Shown here: in pieces, positions 47,216 through 62,420 of the stretch
Layout of the letters: each line of letters opens with the position of its first letter
Numbering within the stretch: the stretch's first letter is position 1
Notes under the pieces: generated by a model
Databases searched by the model: none
What the model saw: only the letters and a program-made list of their open reading frames with translations
Told to the model about the DNA's origin: nothing
Position numbers and translations under genes: made by a program
Origin: Betaproteobacteria bacterium
GTDB taxonomy: Bacteria > Pseudomonadota > Gammaproteobacteria > Burkholderiales > WYBJ01
NCBI GenBank assembly: GCA_009377585.1
Contig: WHTS01000015.1
Location: forward strand, 1 to 64,000
Direction of reading: 5' to 3'
Length of the DNA: 64,000 nucleotides

Positions 47216-48670
47216 GTGACCCTCGACTACGCCACCCTCGAAGCGCTGCGCAGCCACCACCCGGCGTGGCGGCTGCTACGCTCGGACCACGCGGCGCTGG
47301 TCGCGAGCTTCCTGCACCGGACCTTCGTTGCCCCGAACGTGCGCGTGATGGCGGCGGCGGATCTCGCCGAAGCGCTCGAAGACACGCTTTTCGCTCTGCG
47401 CGAGCGGCTCGGGCCCGATGCGTTTCCGCGCCCGGCGGCCGAGTACCTGAACGAGTGGGCGAGCCCCGAGCGCGGGTGGCTGCGCAAGTACTATGGTCCG
47501 GATTCGGACGAGCCGCTGTTCGATCTTACCCCCGCGACCGAAAAGGCCATCGCCTGGCTCGCAATGCTCACCGAGCGCGCCTTCGTCGGCACCGAATCCC
47601 GGCTGTTGACGTTGTTCGAGCTGCTGCGCCAGATGAGTGCGGGCGCGGAGGCGGACCCGGACAAGCGCATCGAGGAGCTGCGCCGGCGTCGCGACGAGAT
47701 CGACGCGGAGATCGCGCGCGTCGCAGCCGGTGAGGTGGCGCTGCTCGACGACACGGCGCTCAAGGATCGCTTCCAGCAGTTCATGCAGCTCGCGCGCGAG
47801 CTGCTGACCGACTTCCGTGAAGTCGAGGACAACTTCCGCCAGCTCGACCGGCGCGTGCGCGAGCGCATCGCGCTGTGGGAAGGCGGCAAGGGCGCGCTGC
47901 TGGAGCGAATCATGGGCGAGCGCGACGCCATCGCCGATTCCGATCAGGGCAAGAGCTTCCGCGCATTCTGGGATTTCCTCATGTCGAGCCGGCGCCAGGA
48001 GGAGCTCTCGGCGCTGCTCGATCGCGTGCTCGCGTTGGCGCCGATCGCCGATCAGAATCCCGACCCGCGCACTCGGCGCGTGCACTACGACTGGCTCGAG
48101 GCCGGCGAGCATACGCAGCGCACCGTCGCCCAGCTCTCGCAGCAGCTGCGGCGCTTTCTCGACGATCAGGCATGGCTGGAAAACCGTCGTATCATGGACA
48201 TCCTGCGCGGGATCGAGGCAAGGGCGCTGGCTTTGCGCGATACGCCGCCGCACGGCGAAACCATGTCGATCGCCGAGTCGTCCGCGGCCATCGAGCTGCC
48301 GCTGGAGCGGCCGCTGTACAGCCCGGCGGTCAAGCCGGTGATCGCCGATATCGCGTTGGAATCGGGCGATGCCGATCTCGATCCCGCGGCGCTCTATGCG
48401 CAGGTGGTGGTGGACCGGGCGCAGCTTGCGCACAACATCCGCCAGGCGCTGCAGGCGCGATCGCAGGTGACGCTGCATGAGCTTGTGCAAGCGCAGCCGC
48501 TCGTGCACGGCCTGGCCGAGCTGGTGGCCTATCTGCAGCTGGGAAGCGAAGCATTCAGGACGGCAGTGGACGAGGACACGACCGAAGTGATCGCCTGGCA
48601 TGCCGCGGGCCGCGACGGGGTCCAGACCACGCGGCAAGCACGCCTGCCGCGCATCATCTTCATGCGTTGA
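47216..48670 (+). CDS. jetA: Wadjet type I protein JetA (DUF3375)
   Basis: The 484-residue protein begins with GTG and TLDYATLEALRSHHPAWRLL, the typical opening of DUF3375. Winged-helix/kleisin-like segments and a coiled region (RIEELRRRRDEIDAEIARV) follow. In type I Wadjet, JetA is the kleisin that bridges the JetC SMC heads. It is the first of four tightly packed genes: a 2-bp gap to jetB, an 8-bp overlap jetB/jetC and a 4-bp overlap jetC/jetD. Wadjet complexes extrude loops on small circular DNA and cleave it, restricting plasmids. The acidic, coiled composition and operon order make the assignment secure. Confidence 0.93.
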   Translation: MTLDYATLEALRSHHPAWRLLRSDHAALVASFLHRTFVAPNVRVMAAADLAEALEDTLFALRERLGPDAFPRPAAEYLNEWASPERGWLRKYYGPDSDEPLFDLTPATEKAIAWLAMLTERAFVGTESRLLTLFELLRQMSAGAEADPDKRIEELRRRRDEIDAEIARVAAGEVALLDDTALKDRFQQFMQLARELLTDFREVEDNFRQLDRRVRERIALWEGGKGALLERIMGERDAIADSDQGKSFRAFWDFLMSSRRQEELSALLDRVLALAPIADQNPDPRTRRVHYDWLEAGEHTQRTVAQLSQQLRRFLDDQAWLENRRIMDILRGIEARALALRDTPPHGETMSIAESSAAIELPLERPLYSPAVKPVIADIALESGDADLDPAALYAQVVVDRAQLAHNIRQALQARSQVTLHELVQAQPLVHGLAELVAYLQLGSEAFRTAVDEDTTEVIAWHAAGRDGVQTTRQARLPRIIFMR

Positions 48671-48672
48671 CC

Positions 48673-49323
48673 ATGGACGAGATTGCTGCGAGCAGCACGG
48701 CACCGGCGGCGAGCCCCGACCTGTCGGCGCTCGCGGTCACGCTGCTCAAGGGCGTGATGTACCGCGAAAGCGATGAGAAGCTGTGGAGCGCGCTCATGGA
48801 TCTGCAGGCGCGCGTGCGCGACTACGTGGCGGTGCTCGGGCTGGATCTCGTGCTCGACGAGGCGGAGGGCTATGCGTTCCTGCGCAGCCGCCCCGATCCC
48901 GGCGATGACGAAGCGGCACCGAGGCTGCCGCGGCTCGTCGCCCGCCGTCCGCTCTCGTTTCCGGTGAGCCTGCTGCTCGCGCTCCTGCGCAAGAAGCTCG
49001 CGGAGTTCGATGCGGGCGGCGCCGACACCCGGCTGATGCTCTCGCGCGACGACATCGTCGAGCTGGTGCGCGTATTCCTGCCGGTGAGCAGCAACGAGGC
49101 GAGGCTCATCGATCAGATCGAGACCCATATCAACCGGGTGGCGGACCTGGGATTCCTGCGCCGCCTGAAAACCACCAGCGGTCCGCCGAGCTTCGAAGTG
49201 CGCCGGATCCTCAAGGCCTTCGTCGACGCGCAGTGGCTGGCCGAATTCGATGCACGCCTGGCGGTCTATCAGCGCCAGCTCGCCGGGGGCGAGACGCAGA
49301 CCGAAGGCGCGAACGATGAATGA
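48673..49323 (+). CDS. jetB: Wadjet type I protein JetB (DUF4194)
   Basis: The 216-residue protein has the DUF4194 pattern of two winged-helix domains: [40 protein letters not shown], an [22 protein letters not shown] segment, then [19 protein letters not shown]. JetB corresponds to the KITE subunits that bind the kleisin JetA in SMC-like complexes. The ATG at 48673 lies two bases after the jetA stop; a TTG at 48667 is the only in-frame alternative. The last eight bases overlap the jetC start, indicating coupled translation and fixed stoichiometry. Confidence 0.93.
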
Positions 49324-52300
49324 GCCGCGCGTGCTCGGTCTCGACTTCGTCGCCGACGACAGCCTGGTCGGCTTTCGCCTCGAGCGTCTCGAAGTATTCA
49401 ACTGGGGCACCTTCGACAAGCGCGTCTGGACCCTTGCGCTCGGCGGCCGCAATGCGCTGCTGACCGGCGACATCGGCTCGGGCAAGTCGACCCTGGTCGA
49501 TGCCATCACCACGCTGCTCATCCCCGCGCACCGGGTGGCCTACAACAAGGCGGCCGGGGCGGAAAGCCGCGAGCGCACGCTGCGCTCCTACGTGCTCGGC
49601 CACTACAAATCCGAGCGCAATGAAGTCACCGGCGCGGCCAAACCCGTGTCGCTGCGCGATCCCAACAGCTACTCGGCGATCCTGGGCGTGTTCCGCAACG
49701 CTGCCTACGACCAGACCGTCACGCTCGCGCAGGTCTTCTGGATGAAGGAGCCCCAGGGCCAGCCCGAGCGGCTCTACGCGTGCGCGGAACGCGAGCTTTC
49801 CATTGCCGAGGACTTCGCCCAATTCGGTACCGATATCGCCCAGCTGCGCAGGCGATTGCGTGCGCGCAAGGTCGAGGTCGAAACGACGTTTCCGAAGTAT
49901 GCGGCGTGGTTCCGGCGCCGCCTCGGCATCGAAAACGAGCAAGCCCTGGAGCTCTTCCACCAGACCGTTTCCATGAAATCGGTGGGCAACCTGACCGATT
50001 TCGTGCGCGCCCACATGCTCGAGGCGCTCGACGTGGGGTCTCGCATCGAGGCACTGATCGGACACTTCAACGATCTCAACCGGGCGCACGAGGCCGTGCT
50101 CAAGGCCAAGCGCCAGGTCGAGCTGTTGACGCCGCTGGTGGCCGATTGCGACCGGCACGGCGAGCTTGCGGCCGAGATCGAGCAGATGCGTGCCTGCCGC
50201 GAGGCGTTGAAGCCCTACTTCGCGGGCTTGAAGCTCGCCTTGCTCGACCGGCGGCTGCAGCTCCTCGCCGAAGATCGCGCGCGCCTAGATGCCCAAAAAG
50301 CGCGGCGCGAGGAAGAACGCGATCGGCAACGCGCCGACGTGGGTCGGTTGCAGCGCGCCGCGGCCGAGCAGGGCGGCGATCGGCTGGAGCAACTGGCGGG
50401 GCAGATACGTGACCAGGAGCGCGAACGCGATCGGCGCCGGCAGCGCGCCGATCGCTATGCGGACCTCATGCGAGCGCTCGGCGAGACGGTGGCCGGCGAC
50501 GAGAGCGTTTTTCTCGCGCAGAAGAACCTCCTGGGCGAGCGGCGCGAGCGCCTCGGCGACCAGGAAGGCCAGCTGCAGAACCGGATCACCGAATGGGGCG
50601 TGTCGCTGCGCGAGGGCAAGCGCGAGCACGATGCGCTCAAGGCGGAGATCGCAAGCCTGAAGGCCCGGCGCAACAACATCCCCCTGGCGCAGGTCGCGAT
50701 GCGCGAGGCCCTGTGTGCTGCCTTGCACCTCGACGAGGAGGCGATGCCGTTCGCCGGCGAGCTCATCCAGGTGCGCGACGAGGCCGCCGACTGGGAAGGC
50801 GCGATCGAGCGTGTGCTGCACAACTTCGGCCTGTCGCTGCTCGTGCCCGAAGCGCACTACGCCGACGTGGCGGCCTGGGTGGACCGCACGCATCTCGCCG
50901 CTCGCCTGGTCTACTTCCGTGTGCGCCCGCCGCGTGCGGCGGATGCTCCGCAGCCGCATCCCGATTCACTGGTGCGCAGGCTCGCCGTCAAACCCGACTC
51001 GGCGTTCTACGGCTGGCTCGAACGCGAGCTCGGCCATCGCTTCGACTACGCCTGCTGCCAGACGCAGGAGCAGTTCCGGCGCGAGGTGCGCGCGCTTACC
51101 CGCGCCGGCCAGGTCAAAGCGCCGGGCGAGCGGCACGAGAAGGACGACCGGCACCGGCTCGAAGATCGCAGCCGCTACGTGCTGGGCTGGAGCAACACGG
51201 CCAAGATCGCCGCGCTGGATTCGCAGCGCCGAGCGCTGGAGCGGCGCCTGGGCGATATCGCTCACGAGATCGCCCAGGCGCAAGCCGAACAATCGAAGCT
51301 GCGCCAGCAGCTCGAAGCGCTGGTTGCGGCGGCGCAGTTTCAGGATTTCCACGAGATGGATTGGCAGGTCTGCGCGACGACGATCGCTCACCTGCAAGAC
51401 GAAAAGGCGCGTCTCGAAGCGGCCAGCGATGCACTGCGCGAGCTCACTGCCCAGCTCGATTCGGCGCGCGCCACGCTCGCAGCGACCGAACAGGCGCTGT
51501 CGGCGATCGACAAGGAACTGGGCAGTGTCGAAGCCAAGGCCGAAGCCGCGCAGATGCTGCGCGTGGATACCGCGCTGCTGGTGACGGAAATCGCAGACGA
51601 GCTGCGTACGCGACTCGAAGCGCTGCGCGCGCAAGCGCTCGGCGAGCATCAGCTCTCGGTCGAATCCTGCGACAACCGCGAGCGCGACTTGCGCGACGGC
51701 TTGCAGACGCGCATGGACGCCGAGGCGAAACGGCTGGAGCGCCTCGCGGAGCGCATCATCAAGGCGATGGCAGCCTTCAAGGAGGCCTACAAGCTGGAGA
51801 CGGCCGAGTTCGATGCGGCCCTCGAAGCGGCTTTCGAATATCGCGGGCTCCTCGCGCGCCTTGATGCCGACGACCTGCCGCGCTTCGAGGCCCGCTTCAA
51901 GGAGCTGCTCAACGTCAACACCATCAACGAGATCGCCAATTTCAATGCGGTGCTCGCGCGCGAGCGCGAAACGATTCGAGAACGCATCGGGCGCATCAAC
52001 CAGTCGCTCGATCAGATCGATTACAACCCCGGGCGCTTCATCGTGCTCGAATCGCAGCCGAGCCTGGATGCGGAGACCCGTGACTTCCAGGCGGATCTGC
52101 GGGCATGCACCGAAGGCGCGCTGACCGGCTCCGACGATGCGCAGTACTCGGAAGTGAAGTTCCTGCAGGTGAAAGCGATCATCGATCGCTTCCGCGGGCG
52201 CGAAGGGCTCTCGGAGCTGGACAAGCGCTGGAGCGCCAAGGTGACCGACGTGCGCAACTGGTTCCTGTTCGCCGCGAGCGAGCGCTGGCGGGAAGACAGG

Positions 52301-52678
52301 AGCGAGTACGAGCACTACTCCGACTCGGGCGGCAAGTCGGGTGGGCAGAAGGAGAAGCTCGCGTACACGATTCTCGCCGCGAGCCTCGCCTATCAGTTCG
52401 GGCTCGAATGGGGCGCGGTGCGCTCGCGCTCGTTTCGCTTCGTCGTGATCGACGAGGCGTTCGGCCGCGGTTCGGACGATTCGGCGCAATACGGGCTGAC
52501 GCTGTTCCAGAAGATGAATTTGCAGCTCCTGATCGTCACGCCGCTGCAGAAGATCCACATCATCGAGCCCTTCGTCGCCGCCGTGGGCTTCGTCCACAAC
52601 GAGGGCGGGCAGGCGTCGATGCTGCGCAACCTCACCATCGAGGAGTATCGCGCCCGCCGCGCCGAGTTCGCCGCATGA
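49316..52678 (+). CDS. jetC: Wadjet type I protein JetC (MukB/SMC-like ATPase)
   Basis: The 1,120-residue SMC-like protein has an N-terminal head with Walker [10 protein letters not shown] (residues 51-59), two long coiled-coil arms either side of a central hinge-like region (about 450-650), and a C-terminal head. The C-terminal head carries the ABC signature-type [19 protein letters not shown] (from about 1004) and Walker [12 protein letters not shown] (about 1041-1051). JetC is the loop-extruding motor of the anti-plasmid complex. I chose ATG 49316 because the protein from there matches the family's N-terminus ([12 protein letters not shown]); upstream codons are in the jetB shadow. All ATPase motifs look intact. 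Confidence 0.95.
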
Positions 52679-53862
52679 GCTGGACGACACCGGGCGATCT
52701 CAAGGCCCAGCTGCGGCGCCTGTGGGAGCGTGGCGAGCTGCTGCGTGACGATGATGCGGCGCGGCCGCGCTTTCCGCTGCGGCTCACGTTGAAAACGCCC
52801 GGGTCGGCGGAGCTCGCGACGCAGTTCGAGGCCGTGCGGGCCTGGATCGCGGAGCTCACCGCGCTCGCGCAGATCCGGATCGAATGGCGCGAGCTTAACC
52901 ATCGCGTACTGGGCCCGCAGCGCGTGCCGCTGTCGGTCTGGGTCGACGACCGAGACACGGCGCTCGCTTTCATCGGCAAACGCGCCGAAGCTGCGCGCTA
53001 CGACGCGCTGCTCGAGTTGGCGCGCGGGCGACAAGAGGAGCTGCTGCCCTGGCTCGCTCGCCGTCCGCTGCAGGCGCTCGCCCTGGCCGAGGACTTCGAG
53101 CGGCTGCTGGGCGTGGTTGCGTGGATCGTTCGGCATCCGCAGCCCGGCGTGTATCTGCGCCAGGTCGATGTCCGCGGCGTGCACAGCAAGCTCATCGAGC
53201 AGAACCGTGGCGTGCTTTCGGAGTGGCTCGATCTCGTCCTGCCAGCCGCGGCGATCCGCGCCGAACGCTCGGGCAGCGCGCAGTTTTCCGAGCGCTACGG
53301 TTTCCTCGGCAAGCCCGTCCGTATCCGTTTTCGGGTGCTCGACTCGCGCCTCGCCCTGCTTGCCGGGCCGACGTGTCCGGACGTGACGCTGGATGCCGAT
53401 AGCTTCGCCCGGCTGCAGGCGCCGATAAGGCGCGCCTTCATCACCGAGAACGAGATCAATTTTCTGGCCTTCCCGCCGGTGGCAGAGGCGATCGTCGTCT
53501 TCGGCGCGGGTTACGGCTGGGAGGCGCTCGGCAAGGCGCGCTGGCTGGAACGCTGCGCTCTGCACTACTGGGGCGACATCGACACGCACGGCTTCGCCAT
53601 CCTCGACCGGTTGCGCGAACACTTTCCTCGCGTCGAATCGTTTCTGATGGACCGCGCCACGCTTCTCGCGCACGAAGCGTCGTGGGGCGAGGAAAACGAT
53701 CCGGTCGTGCACGATCTCGCACGGCTCACCGAAGCCGAGCGCGCGCTCTACGACGAGTTGCGCGACAACCGTATCCGCAAAGGCTTGCGCCTGGAGCAGG
53801 AGCGGGTCGGGTTCGCCTGGATGAGCGCTGCGCTCGAAAGGCTCGTGCACGAAAACGATTAA
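52675..53862 (+). CDS. jetD: Wadjet type I nuclease JetD (DUF3322/DUF2220, Toprim-like)
   Basis: The 395-residue protein starts with an ATG overlapping the jetC stop by four bases. Its N-terminal DUF3322-like half (residues 1 to about 190) has an arm for complex docking. Its C-terminal DUF2220 half has the Toprim-like acidic residues in [12 protein letters not shown] and [16 protein letters not shown] (Glu, then Asp-x-Asp), as in topoisomerase VI A subunits. JetD is the nuclease that cuts the plasmid once the JetABC motor has loaded. Acidic residues are present, so the system looks active. A long perfect hairpin begins six bases after the stop. Confidence 0.93.
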
Positions 53863-54986: not shown

Positions 54987-55030
54987 TTCTGCAGTCCGTT
55001 CGATGCCCGATTCCCGACAGGAGACTTGTC

Positions 55031-55321
55031 ATGTCCGAATACCTGATGAAGGTCAGCGGTTCGAAAACACTGGCACAGATCGAAAACGGCATCGCATCCG
55101 AAGAGGCGCTGGCCTCGAGGTTTCTGCGAAGCCAGCTCGCCGCCGTCGACGGTGAGATCACCAACGTCGTGACGTTCGTCGAGCTGGACGAGCTCCCGGC
55201 GGACGTCCGGGTCGTGCGCGGCGATGCGCCGCCGCCCGATGGCTTCGTGCGGCAGTGGAGCGGCGTGATGCTGGTCGAGGACAGGAACACGGTTGTAACC
55301 GTGTATCGCAAGAACGGTTGA
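55031..55321 (+). CDS. Small hypothetical protein (96 aa)
   Basis: The 96-residue product (MSEYLMKVSGSKTLAQIENG onward) is predicted to be soluble and mixed alpha/beta, with a C-terminal strand-rich part (GVMLVEDRNTVVTVYRKNG). I do not recognise a family. An AGGAG site lies ten bases before the ATG. It sits 44 bp after the lipoprotein stop and 16 bp before the hydrolase start, so it is probably in the same operon and may act with them. Confidence 0.6.
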   Translation: MSEYLMKVSGSKTLAQIENGIASEEALASRFLRSQLAAVDGEITNVVTFVELDELPADVRVVRGDAPPPDGFVRQWSGVMLVEDRNTVVTVYRKNG

Positions 55322-55337
55322 GAAGCGAGGAACCCTC

Positions 55338-56939
55338 ATGGCCAAGCTGCCCGCTTCGAAGATCGAATCCATCGCCAGAGGTACGTCGCAGGGCGTATGG
55401 ATCTGGCGTCTTGCGCGCATCCGCCCCGATTACCTCGACATGCTCGTTCGCGTGGGCTGCCATCGCGTCTATCTCAAATGCTTCGATGATCGCTCGGGCA
55501 ACGGCGCGCGCGATTTCTTCTGGGCGTTCCAGTGCACGCCGGAGATCATCGAGAAGTTTCTCGAACGAGGGATTGGCGTCGTGGGTTGGGGCTACCACTT
55601 CGACGAGCGTACGTCGATTCCTGTCGGCGCTGAAGTCGAGGCGATCGGAATGGCGATGGATTGCGGACTCGACGGCTACATCTTCGACGTCGAGGCCGAA
55701 GTGAAAGCGGCTTCGGCCAGAGAGCCGCTGAGCGAGCTGCTACGGTCGGTGCGCGAGGCGACCGGCGACAAGTTCGTCGGCTACACCTCGTTCGGCAATC
55801 CTGCTTTTCACCGGGAAGTGCCGTGGCGGCTGCTCGACGAGCATTGCGACATCGCATTCCCGCAGGTCTACTTCGAGAAGTGGACGTTCGGCGCGAGCGA
55901 CGACGCCGAAGTGCAAGCCGCGCTGCAGGCGCACCGGGACATGGAGCTTCGATCGCCTGTCTTGCCCATCTGGGGCAGCGAGGAGGACGCAGCGCAGCCG
56001 GCCCCGGCGGCCCGGCTGCAGAGCTATCTCACCCGCTTTCCGGGCTCTTCGATCTTTCGCGTGCCGAACGTCGGCCAGAAGGGCGAGGCGTGGAGCCTGG
56101 ATTACGCCGGTGGTAGCCCGCTGCCTCACTTTCCCGAAGACGGCACCACGTTCGATCCGGCGGCGCTCGTTCTGCCCCGGTTCACCGAGGAGCTCAGACG
56201 CGGCCCGAAAGGTCCGCCGAGTCGCGTCGAGCGGGTGAAGCTCGTTCAGCGTGCGCTTGCGGCGCGGGGTTTCGACCCAGGGCCGATCGATGGCGAGTTC
56301 GGTCAGGATACGGAAAGCGCGGTTCGGCGCTTCCAGATCGTCAATGCGCTCACGCCGGATGGCGCTGTCGGTCCCAAAACCTGGGTGGCCCTCGGCGGCA
56401 CGCTGCCGCCGACCTCGAATGTCCCGCCGGACTTCGCAAGCGCATCGCGGGAACGGCTTGCGAGTATCGCCGACGCCGAGGCGCAGCTCGGACTGATGTG
56501 GACCGGGCCTGACTCCGCGGCCGAGAAGTATCTGCAGCCGCTGCGCGAGCCGATGCGCCGGCTCGGTCACATCGGTGCGGCGCCCGTCTTCTACAATTGG
56601 TGTGCGGCCTTCGTAACGTTCTGCGCACGCCAGGCAGGCTACGCGATTCCCGATCGGCCCGACGGACGAAGTGCGACCATGGCATTGGTGGAAACATGGA
56701 AGGCCTGGGCGAAGTCGGAACGACGCTGGTTCACGCCCGACTTGGCGCCTCCTCAACGCGGCGATATCGTCTGCTTCGAATGGTTCGACGACGACAGGAC
56801 GCTGGATCACATCGGCGTCGTGCTCGAAGGCTCGGGCAACGGCGTAACGCTCACGACCGCCGAGGGAAATCGCAACAACAAGACGGTGAAGGGCGGCCGC
56901 AATCTCGCCAACGTGGCTGGGATCGTTCGATTGGCGTGA
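55338..56939 (+). CDS. Three-domain cell-wall hydrolase: glycoside-hydrolase-like, peptidoglycan-binding, CHAP
   Basis: The 533-residue protein has a TIM-barrel-like N-terminal domain (about 15-270, with YLKCFDD, GVVGWGYHF, YIFDVEAEVK and IAFPQVYF strands). A PG_binding_1 module follows (about 295-353, VQRALAARGFDPGPIDGEFG). The C-terminal CHAP amidase/endopeptidase domain has the catalytic Cys422 (YNWCAAFV), His491 (LDHIGVVLE) and a following acidic/Asn region (TAEGN). CHAP enzymes cut peptidoglycan cross-links. No signal peptide is visible, so export would need another route or lysis, as for phage or toxin effectors. No phage genes are near. Its neighbour is a lipoprotein. Confidence 0.8.
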   Translation: MAKLPASKIESIARGTSQGVWIWRLARIRPDYLDMLVRVGCHRVYLKCFDDRSGNGARDFFWAFQCTPEIIEKFLERGIGVVGWGYHFDERTSIPVGAEVEAIGMAMDCGLDGYIFDVEAEVKAASAREPLSELLRSVREATGDKFVGYTSFGNPAFHREVPWRLLDEHCDIAFPQVYFEKWTFGASDDAEVQAALQAHRDMELRSPVLPIWGSEEDAAQPAPAARLQSYLTRFPGSSIFRVPNVGQKGEAWSLDYAGGSPLPHFPEDGTTFDPAALVLPRFTEELRRGPKGPPSRVERVKLVQRALAARGFDPGPIDGEFGQDTESAVRRFQIVNALTPDGAVGPKTWVALGGTLPPTSNVPPDFASASRERLASIADAEAQLGLMWTGPDSAAEKYLQPLREPMRRLGHIGAAPVFYNWCAAFVTFCARQAGYAIPDRPDGRSATMALVETWKAWAKSERRWFTPDLAPPQRGDIVCFEWFDDDRTLDHIGVVLEGSGNGVTLTTAEGNRNNKTVKGGRNLANVAGIVRLA

Positions 56940-56991
56940 TGGCAGCGAACAGGCAGGGCGTCCGGAACATCCCGATCGCCCGCACCGATCC

Positions 56992-57888
56992 TCAGGGTTC
57001 GAGCGCCCGGGTTACGTCGTCGAACAGCTCGTCCACGGCCAGCCGGCGCGGAATAAGCCCTTGCCGATAGGTATAGGCCAGGGCGACGTCGAGACTGCGC
57101 CGCAGCGCTTCGACGCCGAGCGGGATGGGATCGATCTCGCCCGGCGCGGGTGCTCCGGCGGCCCGCTTGCTCTGCGCCAACAGTCGGAACACTTCCCCAA
57201 CCGCCTGCGGGTTAGATTTCGACAGCGATTCCTTGATCACCACCATGTGGTTCAACTGCAGCGCACGGTTTCGCTTCTGCCAGTCCGCGCCGGCGGCGAG
57301 CGGATCGGGAATCACGGGTTGGAGGCGAGGATCGTGCGGCACGCTGGCGAGAATTGCAGCGTCCAGCTCGCCGGCGAGCAGCATCGCCGTCGCGTCCTTG
57401 CCTTCCGCGGCCCGCTCGACCGTGGGCGGGTCGCGGTACTCGGCGACATGCGGCTCTTCGAAGCTCACCCAGCGCACACGATCGAGATCCAGTCCGTAGT
57501 CGTCGGCCAGGACGCCGCGGACCCAGGTGACCGTCGTCACCGAGTAGGCGCGTATGCCCACCCGCCGTCCGGCCAGATCGCCCGGACGAAGTGGGCCGCG
57601 TTCGGCGTTGTACACGAGGTAGGGATGCTGGCAGCGCGAAAACAATACGGCGGGCAACAGCACGAGCGGCTTTCCGTATGCCTTGGCCATGATGTAGGTC
57701 ACGAGGGCGAGCTCGGCAACATCGAACTCGAGTTGGCGCACGACGCGCTTGAACGCGGTGTGCGGCGCCTTCACGTCGGCGAAATCGAGCACGAGGCCGG
57801 GCGAGCGCACCTCGCCGCGCTTCAGCGCAAGCGTGCCCGGATAGTCGCCGAGTAGTGTCGACAAGCGGGTCGGTTCACGGTCAGACAT
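56992..57888 (-). CDS. Periplasmic-binding-fold protein, 4,5-dihydroxyphthalate decarboxylase-like
   Basis: The 298-residue protein has the two-lobed fold of NMT1/SsuA-like binding proteins and 4,5-dihydroxyphthalate decarboxylase (DHP family): FDVAELALVTYIMAKAYGKP, LAGRRVGIRAYSVTTVTWVRG, EGKDATAMLLAGELDAAILAS. It has no signal peptide, which favours a cytoplasmic enzyme or sensor over a transport receptor. The start at 57888 follows a GGGAGG site; ten more codons lie upstream in frame. It lies 74 bp downstream of the selenoprotein gene on the same strand, so they are probably co-transcribed. Substrate is unknown. Confidence 0.7.
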   Translation of the reverse strand: MSDREPTRLSTLLGDYPGTLALKRGEVRSPGLVLDFADVKAPHTAFKRVVRQLEFDVAELALVTYIMAKAYGKPLVLLPAVLFSRCQHPYLVYNAERGPLRPGDLAGRRVGIRAYSVTTVTWVRGVLADDYGLDLDRVRWVSFEEPHVAEYRDPPTVERAAEGKDATAMLLAGELDAAILASVPHDPRLQPVIPDPLAAGADWQKRNRALQLNHMVVIKESLSKSNPQAVGEVFRLLAQSKRAAGAPAPGEIDPIPLGVEALRRSLDVALAYTYRQGLIPRRLAVDELFDDVTRALEP

Positions 57889-57962
57889 CGATAGCCTCCC
57901 TTTGCGTTGCGCGAACATGTACGGTACGTCGGCATGACCTCTGCCGTCATCGTCGAGTCTCT

Positions 57963-59681
57963 TCAGGAAGGAGGCCGATCATTACTCGGCACCCGGATCT
58001 TCTTGCCAACGGGATAGCCGAGAAATGCGTTGTGCGCGAAAACGTAGGCGTTGTTGCGCAGCTCGTCGCCGCTGACTGCGATCATGTAGTCCTCGGGCTT
58101 CCATACGATCGGCACCATCCGGTTCGGATCCTCCGATTCCAGGAAGTGCTTGGGGATGCGGCCTTCCTTCACATCATCGGTGAGATTCCAGACACCGCGG
58201 ATGTTCCAGTCGCGCAGCTGGCGCTCGAAATCCCACGCCGGCCTGCGCGCATGCTCGAAGAGATAACGCTTCACGTCGAGCTTCGACCAGCCGGCCTTGG
58301 CGAGCGTGCGGGCGAGGATCGGGCTCAACACGACCAGCGGGCGTAGCGTCCCCATGCCATGGCTGGTGGTGAAGGTGACCTGCCAGTTGTTGAAGCGCTG
58401 CACCGAATCGGCGACGTAGGGCAGGAGCTCTTCCGGCGTGCTGCCGGAGACCGAGGAGAGCGACCCGCCGCCGGTGTAGCGCGCCACCGTGACGGTGTTG
58501 TCGCCGGCGACGTATCCCATCTCGACGCTGTTGGGCTCCCAGCCGATCTCCCGCAGAACGTCCTCGTTCTCGGCCAGCACCACGCGCCAGGTGTTGCCAA
58601 AGGTCGCCTTGTCGGTGCGATGCGGCAGGAAGCCGGCGACATTGCGCAGGTACAGCCGCCAGAAGCGCCCGATGGAGGTGTTCGGCAGGAAGCCATCACG
58701 CAGCGCGCCTTGCGTGTAATTGAAGCCGAGCTGCTTGATGATGGGACCATTGAGAATGATGAGCGTGTCGCCGCCTGGTGTGTTGCCGCTGTGCTCGACG
58801 CCATAGCGCGAATCGCACATCGCTTCGATCAGCGCGACCAGGATCGGCATGTGCTCGGGGCGGCAGCCGGCCATGACGCCGTTGACGGCGATGCTCCATA
58901 CGGTGGCCGCGCGGTTGTCGGGCAGCAGCACGCCGAGCATCTCGTCGGGCTTGTGGTCGCTGTGGCGCAGGAAAGTTTCGACCGCCTCGTGCGTCGGCGG
59001 AATGACCGGAAGCCCGTCGGAGTAGTCGTTCTCGACGAAGAACTGGTTCACCGCATTGAGTCCGCCACGAAAGACGACGTCGTGCGGGCCGGGCTCGGCA
59101 GGATCGCCCCTGGCGGCGCTGGCAGCGGTCAGGTTCTGGATGACGCCGTCGAGCGTCACGTCGAGGATATTGCGTTCGATTTCTTCCCGGCTCTGCGTGC
59201 CGATATGACCGGGCACCAGCGCGAGCGGGATGTTGGGCATGCCCAGCCCCACGGAGGTCGCACCGGCCTGGCGCATGAATCCTTCGCATACAAGCGACGA
59301 GGAAGGAATGCCGGCCGCTTCGCATACCGCACTCGCCCGCAACACGGCGGGCGTGCAGCTGCCTCAACACGCCATCCCGGAGATGACGGCATCGACCCCG
59401 AGCTCTTTGAAACGCTGCGGCAAGGCCGCGAGCGCCGCCTTTTCATCCCCGCCGTGCGTGCTGCCGAACTCGCGCCAGCTGACGAAGCGCACTTCCGGAA
59501 AGCGCGACCGGATGCCCTTCTCCAGCAGATCGAACACCACGTCGCCCTTGAAGAGCTGGTCCCAGAGCTCCGCGATGGTCTTGCCTTCGAGGCGGTCGAG
59601 TCGTGGCGCCAATGCGCGCTGTTGCATCTGGCGCGGCGCGCGCGGCCAGAGCACTTCGTAATAACCGTCGTTCGGTGTCAT
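57963..59681 (-). CDS. UGSC-family selenoprotein (Sec encoded by in-frame UGA)
   Basis: The frame reads from ATG at 59681 through 105 codons to VISGMAC, then TGA (59364-59366), then GSCTPAVLRASAVCEAAG and on, in the same frame, to 57963. Read with selenocysteine the product is 572 residues and contains C-U-G-S-C-T, the UGSC motif of a known (seleno)protein family whose members have Sec or Cys at this place. A SECIS-like hairpin lies at the right distance downstream (59329-59356). Both halves are uninterrupted and conserved in style, which argues against a nonsense pseudogene. The N-terminal UGSC domain covers about residues 30-185, followed by a 380-residue C-terminal region without a family I recognise. 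Redox chemistry at U106 is inferred. No sel genes are in the window, so selA/B/C/D must lie elsewhere. Confidence 0.85.
59329..59356 (-). promoter_or_regulatory. Bacterial SECIS element of the UGSC selenoprotein mRNA
   Basis: On the minus strand, 17 bases after the UGA, the loop CGTGTT is closed by GCCCGC/GCGGGC (6 bp), then GCAC/GTGC with a GA bulge (outer 4 bp). The apical loop has G at its second position, and the UGA-to-loop distance is in the 16-37 base range used to recognise bSECIS elements. The hairpin is also coding, as expected in bacteria. Confidence 0.8.
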
Positions 59682-59840
59682 GATCGATGTGTGTCCTCTT
59701 GCTTCGGTTCAAAACGGTAGCATGGCGCCGATGGTCGGGGCCTGCGGGAATGCCTTGATGCGCTTCTCGGGGCTCGGTCCGATTATCTCCGATTGGAGGC
59801 AGCATCATGCCGGCAGGCGCGCACGGGGCCATTGTGTCAG

Positions 59841-59878
59841 GTCCATATAAGGACTATATTCAGTCCTCATTGTGAGGA
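59841..59878. promoter_or_regulatory. Overlapping palindromes, probable Phd-type operator
   Basis: GTCC-ATATAA-GGAC (59841-59854), AGGACT-ATATTC-AGTCCT (59850-59867) and TCCTCA-TTG-TGAGGA (59864-59878) overlap in an AT-rich patch just upstream of the antitoxin ATG at 59886. Phd/YefM proteins autoregulate by binding such sites, so this is the likely operator-promoter region. The last palindrome also contains the GAGGA ribosome site. Confidence 0.65.
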
Positions 59879-59885
59879 ATCGACG

Positions 59886-60155
59886 ATGAAGTACTCGACC
59901 CATATCAAACCCATCAGCTACCTGAAGGCCCATGCAGCCGAAGTTCTGCATAGGCTGGCAGAGGAACGCACACCGCTCGTAATTACCCAGAACGGGGAGG
60001 CCAAGGCCGTAATGCAGGACGTTGCGAGTTATGAGTCGATTCAGGAAACGCTTGCATTGCTGAAGATCCTGGCGCTCGGAAATCGACAGATCGAACAAGG
60101 AAACCTGGCGCCGGCGGCGAAGGTCATCGAGCGCATCCGTAAACGGAAGGCGTAG
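59886..60155 (+). CDS. Phd/YefM-family antitoxin
   Basis: The 89-residue protein has the Phd fold: MKYSTHIKPISYLKAHAAEV, then LVITQNGEAKAVMQDVASYE (the strand-turn typical of YefM/Phd DNA-binding dimers), and a charged C-terminal helix that should wrap the toxin. The ATG was chosen over 31 upstream codons because it aligns with the family's N-terminus and has GAGGA upstream. The toxin gene begins three bases after its stop. Upstream palindromes are the likely autoregulatory operator. Confidence 0.88.
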   Translation: MKYSTHIKPISYLKAHAAEVLHRLAEERTPLVITQNGEAKAVMQDVASYESIQETLALLKILALGNRQIEQGNLAPAAKVIERIRKRKA

Positions 60156-60158
60156 CCC

Positions 60159-60488
60159 GTGCGCTATGAAGTCCTGCTGACCCAGGATGCGCAGAACGAT
60201 CTCGAGGAGCTTCACGAGTACATTGCCGAGCGCGACAGTCCCGAGCGCGCGGAGCACGTCCTGGACGGGATCGAAGCAGCGTTGGCAGATCTCGCGGCGT
60301 TTCCGGCACGCGGCCCGCATCCCAAGGAACTCCTGGCGCTCGGTATCCGGGAGTTTCGTCAGACCTACTTCAAACCCTATCGGATCGTCTATCGTGTCGA
60401 CGGCTCGCGCGTCTACGTGTACCTGATTGCAGATGGGCGGCGAGACCTGCAGACGTTGCTCGCGCGCAGAATGTTCGGCGCAGGATGA
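60159..60488 (+). CDS. RelE/ParE-superfamily toxin
   Basis: The 109-residue protein starts with GTG and shows the ParE/RelE pattern: YEVLLTQDAQNDLEELHEYI, a central FPARGPHPKELLAL segment, FRQTYFKPYRIVYRV and VYVYLIADGRRDLQTLL. Its partner is the Phd-type antitoxin immediately upstream. Family members are either gyrase poisons (ParE) or ribosome-dependent mRNA nucleases (RelE). The C-terminal sequence lacks a clear RelE catalytic Tyr/Lys/Arg set, so I cannot choose. Confidence 0.85.
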   Translation: MRYEVLLTQDAQNDLEELHEYIAERDSPERAEHVLDGIEAALADLAAFPARGPHPKELLALGIREFRQTYFKPYRIVYRVDGSRVYVYLIADGRRDLQTLLARRMFGAG

Positions 60489-60609
60489 ATTTGCCCCGGT
60501 GGAGGGAACAGTCGGGTCGAACGGGCTGCCGGGCGGTCTGCCCCGGCTTCCGTGGCGGCATTCTTGCATTCTCCGAATCCGGAGCGTATAAATGCCGTAA
60601 CCGGAGTCC

Positions 60610-61053
60610 ATGATGAGCGCCAGGCCCCTTGCCTATCCCGCCAGCAGCTTCGACCGAACCCCGCTGGTCGACCTCAATTCGAAAGCCGAGCGGGAGCGCT
60701 TGTCGCGCTCGGCGCTGCAAGGGTTCTTCAAGCTGGTCGAGCGCTGGAAGCTGCGCGACGAGGACGCGCGCGAGCTCCTCGGCGGCCTCTCCAGCAGTGC
60801 CTACTACGAATGGAAGAAGAACCCGCAGCGGGTTCTGGAAGTCGACCGCATCACCCGCATCTCTTACCTCGTCGGCATCTACAAGGCGCTGCACATTCTG
60901 TACGGCGACAAACTGGCCGACGAGTGGATGAAGCTTCCCAACAGGAACGCGATCTTCGGCGGCAGAACGCCGCTCGACTACACCATGGCCGGCGGCCTGC
61001 TGGCAATGCAGACCGTGCGCAAGCTCCTCGATGCGCGCCGAGGCGGTGCGTGA
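60610..61053 (+). CDS. MbcA/ParS/Xre antitoxin of a RES toxin (DUF2384)
   Basis: The 147-residue protein matches the MbcA/ParS/Xre family: an N-terminal helix-turn-helix-like part (LQGFFKLVERWKLRDEDARE), LLGGLSSSAYYEWKKNPQRV, and the DUF2384 C-terminus (ADEWMKLPNRNAIFGGRTPL), the segment that blocks the toxin active site. A GTG start of the RES gene overlaps its stop. Two adjacent ATGs (60610, 60613) are possible starts, with GGAG just upstream. The DNA-binding half suggests autoregulation. Confidence 0.88.
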   Translation: MMSARPLAYPASSFDRTPLVDLNSKAERERLSRSALQGFFKLVERWKLRDEDARELLGGLSSSAYYEWKKNPQRVLEVDRITRISYLVGIYKALHILYGDKLADEWMKLPNRNAIFGGRTPLDYTMAGGLLAMQTVRKLLDARRGGA

Positions 61054-61778
61054 GCTCGCCGCTGCCGAAAACGACGCTGCTGCGCCGGTTCGATACCTGC
61101 CGTCTCATTCCATCGCGATTCGCACCGCGCGAGGATTCGGTGCTTGCCGGCATCGCCGAGAGCGAGGCGCACCTCGCCGACCTGTTCGATCTGGACAACG
61201 CAACCAACGAGCGCCTGCGCGGCGAACGCGGGCTGCTGCCGGGCATCGGCGTGGAGGAGCTCGTGTTCGGCGTGCCCAACTTCCGCATCGTCAACGCGGC
61301 ATTCACTTACGCTCGCCCGGAGGGCGCGCGCTTCAGCGGCTCAGACCGAGGCGCATGGTACTGCTCGATCGAAGCCGAGACGGCGCTGGCCGAAGTGGCC
61401 TTCCACAAATCGGTCGAATACCAGGAGATCGGACGCTTCGACGACAGTGTCACGTACGAAGCGATGCTGGCGGATTTCAGCAGCGAGTTTCACGAACTGC
61501 GCGGCGATTCGCGCTTTACCTCGTGCCTCGATCCGAAGCGCTACGTCGCCTCCCAGCGCCTCGCCACGCGCTTGCTGGAGGCCGGTTCGCTCGGCGTCGT
61601 GTACCCGAGCGTCCGCCAAGCGAAGGGCACCAACCTCGCGTGCTTCCGGCCGGCGCTGGTCGGCAACGTGAGGCGGAGCGACACCTGGCGGCTCACCTGG
61701 TCGGGAACGCCGACGCCCCGGATCGAGCGCGAGAAGGCTCCGGTCCGACGCCGTGCGCGGCCTCGGCCCACGCATTGA
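61050..61778 (+). CDS. RES-domain toxin
   Basis: The 242-residue protein has the RES-type pattern: RFSGSDRGAWYCSIEAETAL followed by AEVAFH, an FHELRGD segment, and LACFRPALVGNVRR near the end of the domain. RES toxins such as MbcT degrade NAD or modify a phosphoribosyl-pyrophosphate enzyme, stopping growth. The GTG at 61050 overlaps the antitoxin stop by four bases, marking a coupled pair. The C-terminal tail is Arg/Pro-rich and may be poorly conserved. The next gene starts within about 80 bp. Confidence 0.87.
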   Translation: MSSPLPKTTLLRRFDTCRLIPSRFAPREDSVLAGIAESEAHLADLFDLDNATNERLRGERGLLPGIGVEELVFGVPNFRIVNAAFTYARPEGARFSGSDRGAWYCSIEAETALAEVAFHKSVEYQEIGRFDDSVTYEAMLADFSSEFHELRGDSRFTSCLDPKRYVASQRLATRLLEAGSLGVVYPSVRQAKGTNLACFRPALVGNVRRSDTWRLTWSGTPTPRIEREKAPVRRRARPRPTH

Positions 61779-61856
61779 CGGATGGAAATGCGGCTGACAA
61801 GCCGCTTCCCGCGATACGCTCCCGACGACCTACGCACATCCGCGAACAAGACTTCG

Positions 61857-62420
61857 ATGATCGACCTCTGGCTGGAAATGCACGCCCAGACGCATCACAA
61901 CGCGCAGGGCATTGCGTCCGGCCACTACGATGTGGCGCTCACGCCCTATGGGCGCGAGCAGGCGCAAACGCTCTTGCGCCAGCGCTATGCGCAGCAGAAC
62001 TTCGATGCGGCTTATGCATCGAACACTCAGCGCGCGTACGACACGGCCTACCTCATGTTCGCGGATCGGCCGATTTCGTTGCTCCAGGACGCGCGGCTAC
62101 GCGAATGCGATTACGGCATCTACGAGGGCCGCCCGAGACAGGAGATGGAGGCCGCCCGCATGGCCGCGATCCATGCGCCGTATCCCAACGGCGAGAGCTA
62201 CGACCAGGTCGTGCAACGGATGCGAAGCTTTCTAACCGACGTCGCCGAGCGCCACGGCGGCCACAGCCTCATGCTCATCGGCCACGCGGCCACGCTGTTC
62301 TCGCTGGAGCACTTGGCGCACGACCGGCCGCTCGATGCGACGGTGGGCATGTGGCCCGAACGGCCGTGGCGGTATGCGTTGTCCTCGAATGGCCTGGTTC
62401 TGCGGCCGCACACGCGCTGA
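61857..62420 (+). CDS. Histidine phosphatase superfamily protein with altered RHG motif
   Basis: The 187-residue protein has the histidine phosphatase layout: LWLEMHAQTHHNAQG, LTPYGREQAQTLL, LRECDYGIYEG and HSLMLIGHAAT. The catalytic histidine in the first motif is present, but the Arg that precedes it (RH) is Met, so phosphate binding may be weakened; the second conserved His (GHAA) remains. The nearest upstream in-frame ATG (61782) would add 25 residues that look disordered, so I start at 61857. It lies close behind the RES toxin on the same strand and may be co-transcribed. Substrate is unknown. Confidence 0.75.
   Translation: MIDLWLEMHAQTHHNAQGIASGHYDVALTPYGREQAQTLLRQRYAQQNFDAAYASNTQRAYDTAYLMFADRPISLLQDARLRECDYGIYEGRPRQEMEAARMAAIHAPYPNGESYDQVVQRMRSFLTDVAERHGGHSLMLIGHAATLFSLEHLAHDRPLDATVGMWPERPWRYALSSNGLVLRPHTR

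Follow-up and report, generated by a model that had tools for sequence, protein, structure and literature searches.

UGSC was described as a selenoprotein in the GOS selenoproteome study of 2008 (PMC2398784), where its fusion to an unknown domain was reported as UGSC/Unknown_1. A later survey recorded 33 UGSC selenoproteins from 26 organisms in 5,207 genomes (ISME J 2016, PMC5029168), UGSC with UAG as the selenocysteine (Sec) codon is known in some bacteria (PMC5330540), and a 2026 review places UGSC among the selenoproteins with largely uncharacterised functions. Here we describe a UGSC gene on the minus strand of contig WHTS01000015.1 of a Betaproteobacteria bacterium, within a stretch of 64,000 nucleotides (nt) that is called the window below. 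The gene encodes one intact selenoprotein of the known UGSC family with a known kind of fusion. With a probability of roughly 0.6, its product is a two-module cytoplasmic Sec reductase that combines a UGSC domain resembling the selenoproteins GrdB and PrdB with a C-terminal partner module. The gene and its parts are:

57963-59681, minus strand: UGSC/C-terminal fusion selenoprotein gene, ATG at 59681, 572 amino acids (aa) with Sec106, stop TGA at 57965-57963.
59364-59366, minus strand: Sec codon TGA, residue 106, within C-U-G-S-C-T (residues 105-110).
59355-59357, minus strand: Cys109, candidate resolving Cys of the U-x-x-C motif, at least 90% conserved in 54 fusions.
59334-59353, minus strand: apical hairpin of the selenocysteine insertion sequence (SECIS), 7-bp stem and loop CGUGUU, from counted pairs, minimum-free-energy (MFE) fold and codon test.
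59160-59657, minus strand: UGSC domain, residues 9-174, predicted to be Rossmann-like alpha/beta, from the Pfam match and a model.
57984-59075, minus strand: C-terminal domain, from about residue 203 to 566; next to short UGSC genes it occurs as a gene of its own.

From the ATG at 59681 to the stop at 57963, the frame was open except for one TGA (59366-59364), around which the translation reads GMAC-TGA-GSCTPAVLRAS. Pfam family UGSC (PF24696) matched residues 9-174, spanning the TGA, with 95.5 bits against a gathering cut-off of 25, and the U/C-G-S-C motif of the family is present as C-U-G-S-C-T. The equivalog cut-off of NCBIfam NF041046 (125) was not reached by the window protein (45.5 bits); three paralogues in the same genome passed it with 125.6, 127.6 and 128.6 bits. 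From about residue 190 onward, Pfam and NCBIfam scans gave no family match. Of 134 tblastn alignments over homologous loci, some of which were fetched twice, 133 had TGA at the position of residue 106. Across the 54 fusions G107 was invariant, and so was position 106 when Sec is read as C. The initial annotation, made from the sequence alone, had proposed an in-frame TGA within C-U-G-S-C-T of a UGSC-family selenoprotein with a SECIS hairpin, and had named the residue at 106 in homologues as a check; the single TGA at codon 106 of 572, the Pfam match across it, the alignments and the hairpin and Sec machinery described below bear this out. A read-level error, which it named as a refuting possibility, cannot explain the TGA because the same TGA occurs in independent genomes. 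Its remark that UGSC is known by motif only was mistaken, since UGSC is a curated Pfam family and its fusion was reported in 2008.

A bacterial SECIS element carries a G within the first two bases of its loop. In the window gene, a hairpin of this kind lies just downstream of the TGA. Its stem CGCCCGC/GCGGGCG (7 bp) begins 11 bases past the TGA, at 59353, and its loop CGUGUU (59346-59341), with G at position 2, begins 17 bases past the TGA. The 45 nt from the TGA folded with an MFE of -24.4 kcal/mol, a value reached by 5 of 200 shuffles, into a 6-bp inner stem, a 2-nt bulge and then 7 + 3 more pairs. The stem-loop, the loop G and the 6-bp inner stem were thus as first proposed; the quoted distance of 17 bases leads to the loop, and the outer stem exceeds the 4 bp claimed. 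A scan of 55000-62000 with Rfam at E up to 5 returned no SECIS, and two matches elsewhere were below cut-off.

The same region was examined in 96 UGSC Sec genes, where the 45 nt from the TGA had a median folding energy of -22.2 kcal/mol, compared with -12.5 for other in-frame segments of the same genes, and ranked among the lowest 5% of folding energies in 69 of the 96. These genes gave 94 distinct segments. Class 1 comprised 70 of them, including the window gene, with a loop that is mostly CGUGUU; class 2 comprised 20, with an 8-bp stem and a three-base loop GUN; and 4 of the 94 fitted neither class. In class 2, 158 of 160 cells were paired; shuffled versions had a mean of 145.8 and never exceeded 153, and slid versions never exceeded 82. 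One class 2 pair was G-C in 14 segments and C-G in 6, with changes on both sides, and in one gene G-C had become A-T through two changes, each at a third codon position. In class 1, 444 of 490 cells were paired against a shuffle mean of 442, with almost no pair changes. Covariation was uninformative here because the hairpin is too conserved, and a synonymous-codon test was therefore used on the 68 genes with C-T-P-A-V-L-R-A, which are related and do not represent 68 independent events. TTG encoded Leu in 65 of the 68 genes and made up 11% of their Leu codons outside the hairpin; the corresponding figures were 68/68 and 17% for Arg CGG, 66/68 and 29% for Pro CCC, and 68/68 and 34% for Ala GCC. 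The Ala codon with its third base just outside the 6-bp inner stem varied (23/33/9/3). Selection clearly acts on the hairpin RNA itself, since rare synonymous codons are fixed in it.

Hairpins were read in 20 of the 23 TGA-bearing UGSC loci of this genome (C161:4624, C44:11571 and C21:4598 were left out). Seventeen of the 20 fitted a hairpin class; L146, L147 and L148 fitted neither, each with some downstream stem. A single UGSC fusion with Cys (TGC) in place of Sec was observed at L144 7792-9387 on contig C44, between two TGA-bearing UGSC loci. This copy (C-G-T-S), a single case, retained 5 of the 8 class 2 pairs and folded at -15.4 kcal/mol; by comparison, all 8 pairs were found in 10 of the 20 Sec genes read in the genome and 7 in one.

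The genome (6.76 Mb, 242 contigs, 99.4% complete, 4.85% contamination) contains the full Sec machinery. SelA was found over cut-off at C118:10812-11927 and is adjoined by SelB (TIGR00475, 442 bits against a cut-off of 242); tRNA-Sec at C118:15068-15158 scored 75 bits, also over cut-off, and was called by ARAGORN as well; and SelD, over cut-off at C2:81361-82290, has an in-frame TGA of its own. A search for selA, selB, selC and selD in the same genome, suggested by the initial annotation, was therefore positive throughout. Among 100 related genomes, this one included, SelA was present in 31, and all 11 UGSC-bearing genomes had it (p = 6e-7 on the assumption of independent genomes, which does not hold for four of a single genus). 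On C118 (L002 4805-10163), selA, selB, a gene for a thioredoxin-reductase-like flavoprotein and the tRNA-Sec gene stand in a row, and the flavoprotein may serve as a general reductant of Sec proteins. In a relative (G060, C81:26413-29084), UGSC, a separate C-terminal gene and SelA are adjacent to one another, hinting that the UGSC module can travel with the Sec machinery.

UGSC genes are expanded in this lineage. Of the 24 UGSC loci that PF24696 identified in the genome, 23 have an in-frame TGA. In 11 of 100 relatives it identified at least 109 loci over cut-off (31 candidates per genome were scored), with an in-frame TGA in 107 of 109. Three genomes of the same genus had at least 16, 19 and 24 loci. 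Fourteen fusion paralogues of the genome are not strain duplicates, because they are only 27-67% identical to the window protein. Twenty-four copies are far above the one or two per genome implied by the 33 genes in 26 organisms of the 2016 survey. PMC13188914 gives total selenoproteomes of 57 and 63 genes; the total selenoproteome here is probably no record, and the number in a single family is the unusual part. Within the available text of the literature searched on UGSC and such expansions, no report of a UGSC expansion was found. The Rossmann-like prediction, the GrdB/PrdB likeness and the two-module pairing were not found in that literature either. Each UGSC gene is split by its TGA and is likely to be broken by ordinary annotation, so a metabolism built on such genes is easily overlooked. 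The window gene was also seen on contigs of metagenome-assembled genomes (L032, L034, L038-L041) that are titled Bordetella parapertussis or Chitinophaga pinensis, titles that seem to be mistaken automatic labels.

The C-terminal domain is a second module and the partner of the UGSC domain. In the window gene and its close relatives the two are fused, and a separate C-terminal gene adjoined all 16 short UGSC Sec genes (15 of one cluster and L099:2346, added by hand) on the same strand, 0-329 bases away. We assume that Unknown_1 of the 2008 report is this domain. When 21 separate C-terminal proteins were scanned with Pfam and NCBIfam, only families at chance level were returned. Cys273 of the window protein (residue 84 of the domain) did not vary among 45 C-terminal sequences, and its conservation in the 54 fusions was 90% or more. 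The model of the domain (predicted local distance difference test, pLDDT, 86.0) gave fumarate hydratase in the top 23 Foldseek rows (best E 1.1e-3), all of them enzymes of one species, Leishmania major, and VIA-align matched it to fumarate hydratase of M. jannaschii (Z 5.1, root-mean-square deviation (rmsd) 5.0, 181 residues). We treat this likeness of the predicted model as a lead only. Taken further, it would make the protein a two-module lyase- or hydratase-like enzyme, with Sec as a metal ligand or nucleophile and a class I fumarase-like module for di- or tricarboxylates, and the MmgE/PrpD, CoA transferase, CoA ligase and enoyl-CoA hydratase genes that neighbour UGSC genes in some loci would suit such an enzyme. 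However, template-modelling scores (TM-scores) near 0.2 and a Z of about 5 fall within what common fold arrangements produce. Class I fumarases have a three-Cys iron-sulfur site, and three conserved cysteines of this kind were not found in the C-terminal domain, where one Cys is invariant in the 45 sequences. We regard a lyase as improbable.

A thioredoxin-like fold was suggested for UGSC in 2008, and the U-x-x-C motif does resemble the CxxC of thioredoxins. UGSC would then be a thiol/selenol oxidoreductase, reducing peroxides or disulfides, with the C-terminal part as an accessory redox domain. The AlphaFold2 model of the fusion (pLDDT 91.8, predicted template-modelling score 0.91) instead predicts five alternating strand-helix units (E35-40 H46-60 E65-67 H80-94 E98-104 H109-122 E127-132 H133-145 E153-156 H165-185; E, strand; H, helix), with Sec106 directly after strand 98-104. 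VIA-align over the UGSC part listed Rossmann-like folds, such as PurE (Z 10.1, rmsd 2.9, 123 residues). Thioredoxin did not figure among the Foldseek and VIA-align matches listed, which does not show that no such match exists. The UGSC domain is predicted to be Rossmann-like rather than thioredoxin-like, and its matches to curated models are to GrdB and PrdB; a thioredoxin-fold enzyme appears marginally less probable still than the lyase. That TGA106 is a true stop or the scar of a pseudogene, leaving two separate proteins as the 105-aa and 460-aa open reading frames (ORFs) of a mechanical ORF list would have it, is barely credible against the same-position TGA in independent genomes, the synonymous codons fixed in the hairpin, the full Sec machinery and a conserved domain that spans the TGA. 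Read error and pseudogene were both rejected as origins of the TGA, which recurs in homologues and at UGSC loci of 11 genomes; the fixed hairpin codons also speak against them.

The relation of the UGSC domain to GrdB and PrdB is part of the case for the Sec reductase. Among the 54 fusions, four matched PrdB (TIGR04483, best E 2.4e-4) and two matched GrdB (TIGR01917, best E 1.2e-5). Residues 86-164 of the paralogue L147 aligned to positions 316-391 of 431 of TIGR01917, and its residues 84-164 matched the C-terminal part of five GrdB/PrdB-type models with E from 2e-4 to 1e-2. We take this C-terminal part to be where the Sec of the GrdB/PrdB family sits. When an alignment of all UGSC domains was compared by hhalign with 11 GrdB-like proteins, a UGA-bearing one from this genome among them, the probability was 84.5% (E 6.9e-6), whereas none of ten control families exceeded 2.1%, and the same alignment superposed the U/C and C columns of U-x-x-C. 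These profile comparisons suggest that the UGSC domain is likely, though not proven, to be distantly related to the Sec domain of GrdB and PrdB. Sequence searches of the PDB, run with profiles of UGSC, the C-terminal domain, GrdB-like proteins and the fusion, yielded no credible relative. PF07355 matched in 7 of 8 UGSC-bearing genomes among 60 relatives and in 4 of 249 genomes of the phylum, none of which offered a full-length clostridial GrdB for comparison. The one PF07355 match of the genome (43.7 bits, cut-off 22) is a GrdB/PrdB-like gene at L154 706-1986, minus strand, with an in-frame TGA in U-P-N-C-T-C and a C-terminal extension.

Operon-like neighbours were found for 58 of 97 UGSC Sec genes. 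The 111 neighbours, approximate counts from a gene caller that was a simple codon-usage script, included 30 Bug/TctC-type binding proteins, 21 UGSC or C-terminal genes and 10 thioredoxin-reductase-like genes. "Bug" denotes one cluster, whose members from this genome overlap PF03401 matches where coordinates were compared; outside the Bug and UGSC clusters, 58 of 60 neighbours were scanned, two TGA-bearing ones being left out. Assuming one gene per kb, between 2% and about 7% of the genes in this genome are Bug genes, as against 6 of the 24 operon-like neighbours of UGSC genes in this genome. The thioredoxin-reductase-like genes lie directly downstream in 10 loci, at -19 to +96 nt, and carry CxxC; a relative, 38-47% identical, is the one between selB and the tRNA-Sec gene. 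Downstream of the window gene itself lies:

56995-57888, minus strand: weakly NMT1-like gene, after a 78-nt gap.

Co-transcription of this gene with the fusion gene is possible. Its NMT1 match was below cut-off (14.9 against 20.5 bits) and did not sustain the earlier name of 4,5-dihydroxyphthalate-decarboxylase-like. The initial annotation had suggested it as a possible partner; as a conserved partner it was rejected, with no relative at E up to 1 among 798 genes called around UGSC loci.

Several results weigh against a GrdB/PrdB-like reductase. With smaller alignments, the hhalign probability was 3-36%. PF07355 (cut-off 22 bits) matched neither the window protein (E 0.1) nor 14 short UGSC proteins (E 10), most of the 54 fusions had no GrdB/PrdB match at all, and the matches obtained, of about 20 bits, are far under the curated cut-offs of 65 to 800, among them those of TIGR01917 (602) and TIGR04483 (300). 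GrdA and GrdE/PrdA had no match in the genome, a result that weighs neither way because control genomes gave no match either. The C-terminal fold had no convincing structural match by Foldseek or VIA-align. The ten UGSC genes with a thioredoxin-reductase-like neighbour represent one subfamily and not ten independent linkages, because they are 63-94% identical; the window gene has no such neighbour, and two of the flavoproteins scored 209 and 237 bits, under the thioredoxin reductase cut-off of 343. Bug genes abound in this genome, with at least 150 among 454 candidates.

The Sec codon, the selected hairpin, the machinery, the two-module pairing and the copy expansion were established by computation; for the proposed reductase we further infer a substrate class, a reaction, an electron donor and a cytoplasmic location. 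SelB and tRNA-Sec would decode UGA 106 as Sec, directed by the downstream hairpin, to give the 572-residue selenoprotein. The substrate would sit at the interface, where Sec106 would attack it; it is probably a small organic acid that Bug-type uptake systems bring in. Cys109 would resolve the selenyl intermediate to an Se-S bond, and the NAD(P)H-dependent thioredoxin-reductase-like flavoprotein would restore the selenol.

A wider proposal is tentative, and we consider it unlikely as a whole. In it, this groundwater and freshwater lineage would hold about two dozen parallel two-module reductases per genome, diversified from Sec chemistry of the glycine/proline reductase type to cleave C-N, C-O or similar bonds of organic acids. 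As a partner of a new type, the C-terminal module might carry the substrate at Cys273 or close to it. Many of these reductases would then stand beside Bug uptake proteins and catabolic genes. The link to selenoprotein B of glycine and proline reductase, the partner domain and the reductase gene would give UGSC a testable biochemistry.

Other features were observed on the plus strand of the window. A single open frame at 10804-39417 encodes about 9,538 residues, and its outer two 4,000-residue pieces contain CARDB, bacterial Ig, cadherin-like and dockerin domains; it is probably a surface or secreted repeat protein. At 47216-53859, a DUF3375 gene, a 218-aa gene, an SbcC/Rad50-like ATPase gene and a 395-aa gene stand in a row, two of which were family-scanned; we presume this row to be a Wadjet (JetABCD-type) anti-plasmid system. 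Two toxin-antitoxin-like pairs lie at 59793-61775, the first a small putative antitoxin followed by a ParE toxin gene, the second an Xre/MbcA/ParS antitoxin with a RES-domain gene.

Among known systems, GrdB, the selenoprotein B of glycine/betaine/sarcosine reductase, and PrdB of D-proline reductase (families PF07355, TIGR01917, TIGR01918 and TIGR04483) are close: the UGSC domain has weak, repeated profile matches to GrdB and PrdB, whereas its partner domain is different. In the alignment with the GrdB-like proteins of the lineage, U-x-x-C of UGSC matches Sec/Cys to Sec and Cys to Cys, and E-x-x-G-x-P comes next. The GrdB/PrdB-like protein of this genome shares with its UGSC proteins a TGA in U-x-x-C, and no C-terminal UGSC-partner domain was seen in its alignment. 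With the UGSC family (PF24696/NF041046), the window protein shares the U-G-S-C motif, the domain score and the in-frame TGA with SECIS, and within the family it falls into a subgroup in which T-P-A-V-L-R-A follows the motif and which has a hairpin class of its own.
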